NCBI GenBank assembly: GCA_026988515.1
Contig: JALSLA010000090.1
Location: 1-33,921, forward strand
Source: Helicobacteraceae bacterium
GTDB lineage: Bacteria > Campylobacterota > Campylobacteria > Campylobacterales > Sulfurimonadaceae
Direction of reading: 5' to 3'
Length of the DNA stretch: 33,921 nt
This document shows positions 9,147-12,881 of the stretch, in pieces. The notes under the pieces were generated by a model. It saw only the letters and a list, made by a program, of their open reading frames with translations, made no database searches and was not told the origin of the DNA. Made by a program: the position numbers and the translations under genes. Numbering within the stretch: position 1 is the first letter of the stretch; every line of letters begins with the position of its first letter.

Positions 9147-9707
9147 TTATTTCAAATCATTAAGCAGACCAATAATGGCTTTTGGCAAGATTTCGTACTC
9201 AATAGCACGGATTTTTTTATGAAAGCTTTGAAACGATTCGTCTGTATCTCGCTGAAATGCCTGTTGCAAAATAACGGCACCGCCGTCAAGCTCTTCGGTG
9301 ACATGGTGGACGGTGGCACCGGCCAGTGGGTCTGCACTGTAAAAACTGCGCTCAAGGGCATGGGCGCCTTTAAAGCGTGGAAGCAGTGAGGGGTGAATGT
9401 TGATGGCTTTTAGCTGTGAGGTAAACACCGGAGTGACAATGCGCATAAATCCTGCCATGACACACAGGTCGATGCAGTAGGATTGCAGTATGGCGACAAG
9501 GTGTTGGTCAAATGCTTCTCGCGTCTTAAAATGTCGGTGTTCAAGAACTCTTACGTCAATACCGGCATGTTTGGCTTTGATGATACCGTTGGCATTGGGA
9601 TTGTCGGTAAGTGCGCAGACAATATGACAGGTATTGCCGTGTACGGTCTCAATGAGGTTTTGTAGATTTCCTCCTTCACCGCTGAAAAGTACGGCTATAC
9701 GCTTCAT
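9147..9707 (-). CDS. purN: Phosphoribosylglycinamide formyltransferase
   Basis: Transfers a formyl group from 10-formyl-tetrahydrofolate to GAR in purine synthesis. 186 residues. The glycinamide-binding FSGEGGNLQNLI is at the start; the catalytic Asn-His-Asp triad is in INIHPSLLPRFKG (Asn103, His105) and ELDGGAVI (Asp141). Its ATG overlaps the nnr stop (ATGA, 4 bases), so its translation depends on nnr. It is a second purine gene near purM, though not in the same operon. Confidence 0.94.
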   Translation of the reverse strand: MKRIAVLFSGEGGNLQNLIETVHGNTCHIVCALTDNPNANGIIKAKHAGIDVRVLEHRHFKTREAFDQHLVAILQSYCIDLCVMAGFMRIVTPVFTSQLKAINIHPSLLPRFKGAHALERSFYSADPLAGATVHHVTEELDGGAVILQQAFQRDTDESFQSFHKKIRAIEYEILPKAIIGLLNDLK

Positions 9708-11095
9708 AACGTAGCGATACTCTCAATCAGAGTTTGCGGTGTGAGCGCATAAGAATTTTGTGAAAAAGTACGTGCGGCAAGCGTATGGGCAAGCGAGGCA
9801 TGGATGGCAGCATCCAGTGGTGCATAGCCTTGTGCTAAAAGCGATCCAATGAGACCGCTTAAGACATCGCCGCTGCCCCCTTTGGCAAGACAGTTGCTTC
9901 CCAACGGATTGATGTAGAAATAGGTACCGTAGCCAATAATGACATTGGCGCCTTTGAGCAGAAGTACGGCATGCGGATAGTGTCGGCAAAACTGTTCAAC
10001 ATAGCTAAAGCGATCGCGCTGTAAGGTAGCAATATCAATATCGGCGATACCGCACTTTTTTAAGACAGTTGTAAACTCTTTCGGATGCGGGGTAAGGATG
10101 ATATTGCGGCGTTGCAGTAAGGAAGGAAACAGAGGATGCGCAAAGATATCGGCATCCAGAATCAGAGGAAGCGTATGGTTGAGATGGGCTTGAAGTTCAC
10201 AGTCGGAGAATTCGTTGCCCAGTCCCATACCGACGGCCAGTGCTGTTGTTGTTGACGGTAGTAGGTGGGACTGCATCAGTTCGTCAGGCAGTTGAACATT
10301 TTCATTCGAGAGCAGGGTTACCAAACCGGCACCGAAGCGAAAAGCGGCACGACCGGCAATCATGGCGGCACCTTGTTTTTCACCGCAAATGATACCCAGA
10401 TGTCCGAAACTTCCTTTGTGGGTATTGTGTCGGTGTCGGTGCGGTAATTTGATATCATCAGCTTCCAAAAGGTTCCAATTGCTTGGTGTCTCATATACGG
10501 CACGACTGACGCCCAAATCAATAACATGAACGCTTCCGACAACATCTTTAGCGGCATCACTGAACATGGAGCGTTTGAGAGCGCCCATGCAGAGGGTGAT
10601 GTCGGCATGAAACACAGCCGATTCCAAGCTGCCGTCACGATGTAGTCCCGAAGGAACATCACAAGAAATTTTAACAGCTGAGAGGGCATTAAGACGTTGT
10701 AACAGTGATGCGGTAGGCGCATCAAACGATCGTGAAAAACCTGTACCGAACAGCGCATCAATAACAATGTCGGCAGCAGAGAGTGTTTTGCAAACGCTCA
10801 CACCGACCTTTTCGGCACGCCGCAGCTGCAACTGTGCCATTGGCGACTTGACACCGTAGGGCAGATAGACAGAGACGGCATAGGTTCCGTGCAGTATGCG
10901 TGCCAAAGCGATTCCGTCAGCACCGTTATTGCCGCTACCACAGACAATAAGAACAGAGTGGCCGGTATTAAAGTGCGCGGCTATATATTCCCGCATCCCG
11001 TCTGCCGCATGTTCCATTAAGATATCTTCACTGAGTTCAAACTCATGATAGCATCGCCGATCCAGCGATTCGGTCTCATCAAATATTTTTTGCAT
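9704..11095 (-). CDS. nnr: Bifunctional NAD(P)H-hydrate epimerase / ADP-dependent dehydratase
   Basis: Repairs hydrated, damaged NAD(P)H. 463 residues. The N-terminal YjeF_N epimerase half (about 1-205) has VCGSGNNGADGIALARIL at 51-68, DALFGTGF and CDVPSG. The C-terminal kinase-like NnrD half (about 215-463) has NTHKGSFGHLGII, ILDADIF, LTPHPKEF, LLKGANVIIG and the NCLAKGGSGDVLSG loop at 401-414. No ribosome site precedes the ATG, and an extended -10 box ends 7 bases before it, so the mRNA should be leaderless. It is the first gene of nnr-purN, divergent from kdsD. Confidence 0.93.
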   Translation of the reverse strand: MQKIFDETESLDRRCYHEFELSEDILMEHAADGMREYIAAHFNTGHSVLIVCGSGNNGADGIALARILHGTYAVSVYLPYGVKSPMAQLQLRRAEKVGVSVCKTLSAADIVIDALFGTGFSRSFDAPTASLLQRLNALSAVKISCDVPSGLHRDGSLESAVFHADITLCMGALKRSMFSDAAKDVVGSVHVIDLGVSRAVYETPSNWNLLEADDIKLPHRHRHNTHKGSFGHLGIICGEKQGAAMIAGRAAFRFGAGLVTLLSNENVQLPDELMQSHLLPSTTTALAVGMGLGNEFSDCELQAHLNHTLPLILDADIFAHPLFPSLLQRRNIILTPHPKEFTTVLKKCGIADIDIATLQRDRFSYVEQFCRHYPHAVLLLKGANVIIGYGTYFYINPLGSNCLAKGGSGDVLSGLIGSLLAQGYAPLDAAIHASLAHTLAARTFSQNSYALTPQTLIESIATL

Positions 11096-11101
11096 GTTGC
11101 T

Positions 11102-11110
11102 ATTATATCA
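11102..11110 (-). promoter_or_regulatory. Extended -10 promoter of nnr, leaderless
   Basis: The minus strand reads TGATATAAT. With the hexamer at 11102-11107, the expected +1 is exactly the A of the ATG at 11095. No Shine-Dalgarno sequence is present. Confidence 0.65.
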
Positions 11111-11135
11111 GTAGTGAGTTAAAGGCTCTTTGAGA

Positions 11136-11141
11136 TATAAT
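11136..11141 (+). promoter_or_regulatory. -10 box of kdsD, leaderless
   Basis: TATAAT is followed by CGCATTT and then ATG at 11149. The expected +1 falls at 11148 or on the A of the start codon, and no Shine-Dalgarno is present. A -35 box is not evident. Confidence 0.6.
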
Positions 11142-11148
11142 CGCATTT

Positions 11149-12117
11149 ATGAAAAACTATTTAGAGATAGCCAAAGAGACGCTGCATATTGAAGCAAAAA
11201 CCCTTGTTGATGCGGCAGAAAACCTAGAAACAGACTTTAGTGATGCTGTTGAGATGATCTTTTCGTGCCATGGCAAGCTCATTGTTACGGGAGTAGGAAA
11301 ATCGGGACTCATTGGAGCTAAGATGGCGGCAACATTTGCTTCCACGGGTACACCGAGTTTTTTTCTGCACCCGACTGAAGCACTGCACGGCGATTTGGGA
11401 ATGATCGGCAAAAACGATGTGGTATTGGCTATTAGTTACAGTGGCGAGAGCGAGGAACTGAGTTCAATTTTACCGCACATTAAGCGGTTTGACATTCCGC
11501 TGATCGGGATGACGCGACAGATCGATTCGACGCTGGGACGATACAGCGATGTCGTGATTCGGGTTACGGTTGAAAAAGAGGCCTGCCCGTTGGATATTGC
11601 ACCCACAAGTTCAACGACACTGACTCTGGCTCTTGGTGATGCTCTGGCAATCTGTCTCATGAAAGCGCGCAATTTTGCCAAAGAAGATTTTGCGGCATTT
11701 CATCCCGGCGGGGCACTGGGCAGACGGCTTTTTGTCAAAGTAAAAGACATTATGCGTCAAAACAATTTGCCCATTATTGCACAGAACAGCCCTATGAAAG
11801 AGGCAATAATTGCTATTGGTGAAGGGCGTCTGGGTACGGTGTTTCTAGTTGATGATTCCGGTACGATGGTCGGTATTTTAAGTGACGGTGACGTGCGTCG
11901 CGCACTCATGCAAGCGCAATTTTCGCTAGAAACTCCGGCATTGACGTACGCGACTAAGAACCCTATTGCCATCAGTGACGCGGAGATGCTTGCCAGTGAC
12001 GTACTGGTTCTTATTGAGCGTAACAAAATACAAATTTTAGCCGTCACCGATGATACGGGACAGGTGAAAGGGGTGGTGCATCTGCACGATCTCGTCGAAA
12101 AAGGAATAGCATCATGA
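11149..12117 (+). CDS. kdsD: Arabinose-5-phosphate isomerase (KdsD/KpsF family)
   Basis: Converts ribulose-5-phosphate to arabinose-5-phosphate, the precursor of Kdo in LPS. 322 residues. The N-terminal SIS sugar-isomerase domain has VTGVGKSGLIGAKMAATFASTG near 47-68 and SYSGESEEL near 105, with FHPGGALGRRL ending the domain. Two CBS domains follow, from about 205 (IMRQNNLPIIAQNS, VFLVDDSGTMVGILSDGDVRRAL) to the end (LAVTDDTGQVKGVVHLHDLV). Its stop overlaps the next gene's ATG. It leads the operon kdsD-rluB-rarA from a promoter that seems to give a leaderless mRNA. Confidence 0.93.
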   Translation: MKNYLEIAKETLHIEAKTLVDAAENLETDFSDAVEMIFSCHGKLIVTGVGKSGLIGAKMAATFASTGTPSFFLHPTEALHGDLGMIGKNDVVLAISYSGESEELSSILPHIKRFDIPLIGMTRQIDSTLGRYSDVVIRVTVEKEACPLDIAPTSSTTLTLALGDALAICLMKARNFAKEDFAAFHPGGALGRRLFVKVKDIMRQNNLPIIAQNSPMKEAIIAIGEGRLGTVFLVDDSGTMVGILSDGDVRRALMQAQFSLETPALTYATKNPIAISDAEMLASDVLVLIERNKIQILAVTDDTGQVKGVVHLHDLVEKGIAS

Positions 12118-12881
12118 TGCGTTTAAACAAGTTTATTGCCCACTACTCCTCCTACTCACGCAGAGAAGCAGACAAGGCCATTCAAGAAGGGTATGTCAAG
12201 GTGGAAGGTGCCGTGCAGACCAATCCGGCCACACAGGTAGATGAGCGTTATGCCAAGGTGGTTATTAGCGGTAAAAAAATTGTACCGACGGATCAATTTA
12301 CCGTTATTGTTTACAACAAGCCCAAAGGGGAACTGGTGACCAAAAAGGATCCGCGCGGACGTAAAACGATCTACGATACATTGGAAAAAAAGTACAAACA
12401 CTTCATTCCTGTGGGAAGGCTCGATTATGCCAGTGAAGGGGTGTTGTTACTGACCGATGCCTCTCGCGTGGCTACAACATTAATGAACTCCGACTTGCAA
12501 CGTATCTATAAGGTAAAAATTCGCGGTACCGTTTCTGAATTGATGGAACAAGCCATGCAAGAGGGGTTGACGCTAGACGATGCGACGGCAGGGGCGCATG
12601 CACATTCGAGTATTACGACAATGACTTTTGCCCCGTTTCTTGCCTATCACGTTCAGAAAAACACGCCAAACTACTCCATCTTAAAAGTTGCCATCAGTGA
12701 AGGGCAAAATAGAGAGTTACGCCGTTTTTTTGCACACTTTGGCACGGATGTAACCGACTTGAAGCGCATTGACTTTGGCGGTATAGAACTTAATAATCTG
12801 CCGACGGGCAAGAGCCGGTTTTTAACGCGTAGCGAGTACCGTACGCTGCATCAATTTCTTAAAGAAGCGAAAGTAGTGTAG
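12114..12881 (+). CDS. rluB: RsuA/RluB-type rRNA pseudouridine synthase
   Basis: Isomerises a uridine in rRNA. 255 residues: an S4 RNA-binding domain at 2-48 (RLNKFIAHYSSYSRREADKAIQEGYVKVEG begins it), then the catalytic domain with VGRLDYASEGVLLLTDA, whose Asp is the nucleophile, and later VAISEGQNRELRRFFAHFG. Two in-frame ATGs (12114 and 12117) overlap the kdsD stop; either may be used. The family is certain; RluB, RluE and RsuA are hard to separate by eye, and the symbol reflects overall length and the Campylobacterota pattern. Confidence 0.85.
   Translation: MMRLNKFIAHYSSYSRREADKAIQEGYVKVEGAVQTNPATQVDERYAKVVISGKKIVPTDQFTVIVYNKPKGELVTKKDPRGRKTIYDTLEKKYKHFIPVGRLDYASEGVLLLTDASRVATTLMNSDLQRIYKVKIRGTVSELMEQAMQEGLTLDDATAGAHAHSSITTMTFAPFLAYHVQKNTPNYSILKVAISEGQNRELRRFFAHFGTDVTDLKRIDFGGIELNNLPTGKSRFLTRSEYRTLHQFLKEAKVV

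Follow-up and report, generated by a model that had tools for sequence, protein, structure and literature searches.

The nnr/kdsD Locus

The stretch of DNA analyzed here (33,921 nucleotides; hereafter "the window") is one of the 97 contigs that make up a draft genome of 1.99 Mb. Within it, nnr and kdsD lie head to head, with 53 bp between their start codons, and kdsD is followed by an rluB-type pseudouridine synthase gene (Table 1). The nearest named loci to the window KdsD come from Sulfurimonadaceae and other Campylobacterales, and in a tree of KdsD proteins the window sequence falls inside the Sulfurimonadaceae group. Protein alignments with relatives begin at residue 1–3 in almost all cases, which supports the ATG as the true start; a downstream start with a ribosome site, an alternative raised in the first-pass annotation and looked for here indirectly, is not suggested, relatives aligning from the first residues.

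Table 1. Features of the nnr/kdsD locus and of the loci compared with it (window positions unless a locus is named).
Feature	Position	Strand	Basis or remark
kdsD (KpsF/GutQ-type arabinose-5-phosphate isomerase), predicted leaderless	11149..12117	+	TIGR00393, 363 bits (cut-off 203.7); start conserved
nnr (NAD(P)H-hydrate epimerase/dehydratase), predicted leaderless	9704..11095	-	TIGR00196 and TIGR00197 above cut-off
Partner gene following kdsD, rluB-type pseudouridine synthase	12114..12881	+	TIGR00093 above cut-off; follows kdsD at almost every locus
kdsD -10 TATAAT, 7 nt before ATG	11136..11141	+	Exact in 27/32 family genomes, one mismatch in 3 more; spacer 11142-11148, ATG 11149-11151
nnr -10 TATAAT, extended (TGaTATAAT), 6 nt before ATG	11107-11102	-	4/28 family genomes; spacer 11101-11096, ATG 11095-11093
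Expected kdsD +1 (on the A of the start codon)	11149	+	Deduced from the distance to the -10 and the pyrimidine at -1
Expected nnr +1 (on the A of the start codon)	11095	-	Inferred from -10 spacing
28-bp block ending with, and including, the kdsD -10	11114..11141		27/28 columns identical in three same-genus genomes
Copies of TTACATGTAA in the window	17661, 20312, 24751, 31201, 33521
Fur-family regulator gene with signature	L050 11697-12095 (G000:C19)		Also L252-L265, L273, L275
uvrB, leaderless-type in the window genome	L171 5763-7745
glnD, leaderless-type in the window genome	L168 8968-11481
nnr/kdsD head-to-head loci	L002, L003, L283, L005, L006 (= L052), L007, L012, L013, L059, L069, L072, L079

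The first-pass annotation described a perfect TATAAT at both genes, placed so that transcription would begin at the A of the ATG or within one base of it, and no Shine-Dalgarno (SD) at either; the sequence confirms these elements and their spacing. Specifically, gaTATAAT-N7-ATG at kdsD and gaTATAAT-N6-ATG at nnr both fit gnTAnaAT-N5-9-ATG, the motif used to predict leaderless mRNAs in Campylobacterota (PMC3847290). No SD was found at nnr, where the anti-SD complement is matched over 3 nt at most (the TAA within TATAAT itself), or at kdsD, whose signature-bearing loci lack any anti-SD match longer than 4 nt. No 5' hairpin is indicated by RNA folding over the initial 60 nt of each mRNA (z 0.49 and -0.49).

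The expected start points lie 54 bp from each other, with 28 bp separating the -10 boxes. The 28-bp block that ends with the kdsD -10 is conserved among the three genomes of the genus in which the locus is present (Table 1), the surrounding sequence sharing a pairwise identity of 66–74%, and the inner 20-mer of the block occurs without mismatch only at the nnr/kdsD locus in each of the three. As one promoter has the block as its upstream region and the other as its core, there is reason enough for it to be conserved, and it is not a repeated motif. A reading of it as a shared operator was rejected: elsewhere in four genomes of the genus the 20-mer was found only with 2–3 mismatches, at eight places vs. 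four for the reversed control.

Leaderless-Type Promoters in the Window Genome

A sample of 94 stretches (window included), covering 1.28 Mb of the 1.99-Mb genome and 1196 open reading frames (ORFs) of at least 80 aa, gave the background rate of the signature. An exact TATAAT stood 5–8 nt before an early in-frame ATG at 15 of the 1196 ORFs (~1.3%), as delimited by a crude, greedy longest-ORF caller, vs. two for out-of-frame ATGs. By spacing, the in-frame counts were zero at 2–4 nt, one at 5, eight at 6, five at 7, and one at 8, and counts for leadered promoters climb from a spacing of ~17 nt. With one mismatch allowed, spacing 6 yielded 28 in frame vs. 4 out of frame and spacing 7 yielded 26 vs. 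7. Given this isolated in-frame peak at 6–7 nt and the few out-of-frame matches, leaderless-type promoters are a genuine minority class in this genome. The first-pass annotation was thus right that such starts are not a general habit; SD-like sites occur at several other window genes (5487, 20401, 27108, 30075, 31350), while operon-internal genes vary. Its remark that two leaderless starts back to back are unusual holds in part: nnr/kdsD is the only one of 144 divergent pairs in the sample with an exact signature on both sides (three have it on one side), and the arrangement is therefore uncommon, yet this pair was picked after the fact.

Beyond promoters, the genome carries the palindrome TTACATGTAA in 354 copies (reversed control, 2). 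The 1.28-Mb sample holds 237 of them, the next commonest palindromic 10-mer occurring 40 times; 65 of these 237 are not wholly within ORFs, though ~94% of the sequence is ORF, and around those 65 the consensus widens to TTTACATGTAAA. Copy number is patchy among relatives: 866–1061 in G005, G007, and G022, near zero in most others, 1220 in G055 of another family, and 367 in G018 vs. 48 in its congener G031. TTACATGTAA looks like a highly iterated palindrome.

Conservation of the kdsD Signature

Sixty genomes were searched, 37 from Sulfurimonadaceae and 23 from other families. Five family genomes offered no usable kdsD start (G001, G009, G014, G027, G029), leaving 32 assessable; 13 trimmed relative loci with little coding sequence were scored by match coordinates, and six loci were added later. 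The kdsD signature is exact in 27 of the 32, carries one mismatch in three (G008, G025, and G034, all of one genus), and is absent from two (G013, G019). Outside the family, one of 23 genomes (G056) has it exactly, two have it with one mismatch, and 20 lack it. We treat the G056 case as a chance match, with a spacing of 5 and the hexamer just ahead of the apparent stop codon of the preceding gene. Named loci from the genome collection show a consistent kdsD pattern, and kdsD keeps the signature irrespective of which gene lies upstream.

Two loci are irregular in other ways. In G034 (L323, L324) kdsD was matched in two separate pieces, one mismatch being present in the leaderless-type promoter, and this genome also has a second, more divergent kdsD copy lacking the signature. 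In L076, from a single-cell genome of Sulfurimonas, the TATAAT of kdsD (~2490-2500) abuts a TTG start, below the usual spacing, and the locus was scored as having no signature; a deletion or an assembly error may have produced this contact.

For the finer features, we compared 55 non-redundant signature loci (seven duplicate rows and the G056 match having been dropped) with 52 contrast kdsD loci lacking the signature, some of them from outside Campylobacterota. The -10/ATG spacing in the 55 is 6 nt in 37 and 7 nt in 18, with no other value. A pyrimidine stands just before the ATG in 54 of the 55 vs. 25 of the 52, and SD matches of 5–6 nt occur at none of 56 kdsD loci with the signature vs. 20 of the 52 without it. 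The aligned promoters read GnTATAAT, i.e., with a G two positions before TATAAT and an A/T bias upstream, the flanks being otherwise weakly conserved; no -35 element appears in the alignment. Bacterial RNA polymerase usually prefers a pyrimidine at -1 and an A at +1. If the usual distance from the -10 were strict, +1 at a spacing of 7 would fall one base before the A; with the pyrimidine at -1, the pattern nevertheless fits an RNA start on the A of the ATG at this spacing too. Together, the family-wide fixed spacing, the pyrimidine at -1, and the absence of an SD strongly support a leaderless kdsD start.

Origin of the kdsD State

A quick tree, built by maximum likelihood from 99 KdsD proteins, recovered the family clade with an SH-aLRT of 94 (no bootstrap). 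On this tree the signature is found in 58 of 60 family-clade rows and in none outside, a distribution that needs three changes and reads as one probable gain and two losses (L030, L076); G019, which the tree does not include, also lacks the signature and would count as one more loss. Gene order changes at the same boundary. The RNase J gene rnj (TIGR00649) precedes kdsD by 9–89 nt, in the same orientation, at all 34 scored loci outside the clade, and is upstream of kdsD at none of 61 inside it (upstream stretches of 33 to 2501 bp searched), while rluB stays downstream of kdsD on both sides of the boundary. From this adjacency in 34/34 vs. 0/61 loci it follows that the leaderless kdsD promoter goes with the break-up of the rnj-kdsD-rluB operon. 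The simplest account is that the operon was broken in the family ancestor and that kdsD-rluB then gained a promoter with its -10 box at the ORF.

Comparison of nnr

At nnr, the exact signature occurs in four of 28 family genomes (G000, G002, G003, G022) and in neither of two others. The nnr signature is therefore recent, and the three same-genus genomes holding the locus (its own included) plus one other lend the leaderless reading of nnr moderate support. Nor is the paired state conserved, nnr's four of 28 standing against 30 of 32 for kdsD (three with one mismatch). The two genes stand head to head, no more than 100 bp apart, at 12 distinct loci: kdsD bears the signature in all 12, nnr only in L002, L003, L283, and L012, and kdsD alone in the remaining eight. 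At L005, L006, L059, L069, and L072, nnr instead has a TATAAT 18–27 nt upstream together with an SD-like run. With the signature in four of the 12 for nnr vs. all 12 for kdsD, nnr switches between leadered and leaderless states while kdsD does not. In the Sulfurimonas loci L059, L069, and L072, where the gap is 36–44 bp, the -10 boxes of the two genes nearly coincide on opposite strands as a symmetric two-way promoter. The comparison of promoter-to-ATG spacing in related genomes, proposed in the first-pass annotation, thus bears out its leaderless prediction unevenly: the spacing of 6–7 nt is kept family-wide at kdsD, for which support is strong, and at nnr is confined to few genomes, for which it is moderate.

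Other Leaderless Candidates in Sulfurimonadaceae

Upstream of a Fur-family regulator gene (PF01475), the signature is exact in 14 and one mismatch away in four of 21 family loci, and found in none of nine from other families. Sulfurimonadaceae therefore have at least two leaderless candidates that have long been conserved, kdsD among them. Two comparators leaderless-type in the window genome gave mixed results. Of the 22 uvrB loci scored in the family, 10 carry the signature exactly, and six further ones, in which the script found no start codon, include at least two (L208, L212) with TATAAT-N5-ATG; at glnD the signature is exact in seven of 29 family loci and one mismatch away in two, with L249 lacking the N-terminus. 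Conservation of the kdsD kind is therefore not automatic. Both comparators are leaderless-type in part of the family, other relatives having TTG/GTG starts, SDs, or longer leaders, and they form a natural series of leaderless/leadered switches.

Proposed Model and Alternative Readings

The promoter elements, their spacing, their conservation, and the link of the kdsD state to lost rnj adjacency can be read directly from the sequences compared. We infer from them that each gene is transcribed from a sigma-70 promoter of the kind ordinary in Campylobacterota, its -10 box lying right against the ORF, such that the mRNA 5' end would lie at the AUG or within one base of it and translation would proceed without an SD. 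Leaderless mRNAs are translated by 70S or IF2-assisted initiation at a 5' AUG. The kdsD state would have originated once, near the base of Sulfurimonadaceae, when kdsD-rluB had left rnj and needed a promoter of its own, and would since have been maintained by selection on -10/ATG spacing; at nnr the same state probably arose later, in the window genus and one other genome. We consider this explanation, i.e., sigma-70 transcription from the A of both start codons and leaderless translation of the two genes, highly probable as a whole. Taken alone, the leaderless start of kdsD is more probable still, and that of nnr somewhat likelier than a leadered one.

Other readings of the same elements fare less well. 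That an AT-rich hexamer was matched by chance is scarcely credible: the genome is on the AT-rich side (43% GC over a 900-kb sample), but the in-frame excess over the out-of-frame control (15 vs. 2) and the family-wide conservation speak against it, and for kdsD chance is already excluded. The TATAAT boxes could instead be decoys, with both genes leadered and read from promoters further upstream; nnr is only 54 bp away, so a leader could extend into the opposite gene. This is quite improbable, however, given the fixed 6–7 nt spacing amid weakly conserved flanks, the pyrimidine at -1 in 54 of 55 loci, the lack of an SD, and the isolated in-frame spacing peak. A little less improbable, though still doubtful, is that leaderless promoters are a packing solution to the short divergent gap. 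In the window genus 53 bp separate the start codons and 28 bp the -10 boxes, as packing would have it, but nnr remains leadered, with an SD present, across the still shorter gaps of L059, L069, and L072, and kdsD also carries its signature where nnr is far away.

The first-pass annotation went further and suggested that the two genes form a joint regulatory device, both being translated preferentially under stress that favors leaderless initiation. The three same-genus genomes and G022 do carry both signatures, but nnr lacks it in 24 of the 28 family genomes and kdsD has it alone in eight of the 12 head-to-head loci; the joint response is unsupported, and we regard such a device as very improbable. 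With starts 54 bp and -10 boxes 28 bp apart, the polymerase footprints should overlap, so two polymerases could hardly hold both promoters together, and such mutual exclusion would make competition at least as plausible as co-response.

Relation to Known Leaderless Genes and Implications

The sigma-70 model favored here for both genes has clear precedents. PMC3847290 describes, in Campylobacter jejuni and Helicobacter pylori, leaderless mRNAs of the same phylum with the same motif, no ribosome binding site, and an ATG start; in C. jejuni, gnTAnaAT lies 4–8 nt upstream of mapped starts, leaderless starts share this signature, and promoters lack a -35, as in the aligned kdsD promoters. At C. jejuni cj0153c a leaderless promoter splits an operon, as at kdsD (PMC3847290), so that both leaderless mRNAs of this type and their gain or loss at operon breaks are already known in the phylum. 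Outside it, the available portion of PMC3160421 describes TA-led genes, in which a -10-like TANNNT ~12 bp upstream of the start codon likewise marks leaderless genes; these are genome-wide statistical classes with no ortholog-by-ortholog history of kdsD, whereas that history is traced here. The -10-adjacent ORFs of Deinococcus-Thermus (PMC12340547, whose section headings claim promoter tests) similarly have the -10 box directly before the ORF and leaderless mRNA, but that text presents them as a common mode in their phylum, as against a minority mode here (15/1196 ORFs).

What sets kdsD apart is its persistence. Following 23 genes, PMC3847290 reports that leaderless mRNAs generally lack conservation, and its main text mentions neither kpsF nor kdsD; in the open-access literature on leaderless mRNAs we found no report of a leaderless kdsD. 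While the leaderless mRNAs of PMC3847290 are poorly conserved, the kdsD state is near-fixed across Sulfurimonadaceae, and kdsD is thus a counter-example: an apparent single gain, tied to an operon break and followed by near-fixation in a family. As such, it makes the question of why a leaderless start is kept testable in Sulfurimonas, which is harmless and can be cultivated. A bolder and, in our view, rather unlikely proposal is that the leaderless state itself is selected family-wide in a small core of Sulfurimonadaceae genes, kdsD and the Fur-family regulator first among them. If true, leaderless initiation would serve core genes—for example, Kdo/LPS synthesis would continue when leadered initiation is limited—and the leaderless state would be more than a neutral by-product of a promoter's chance position.
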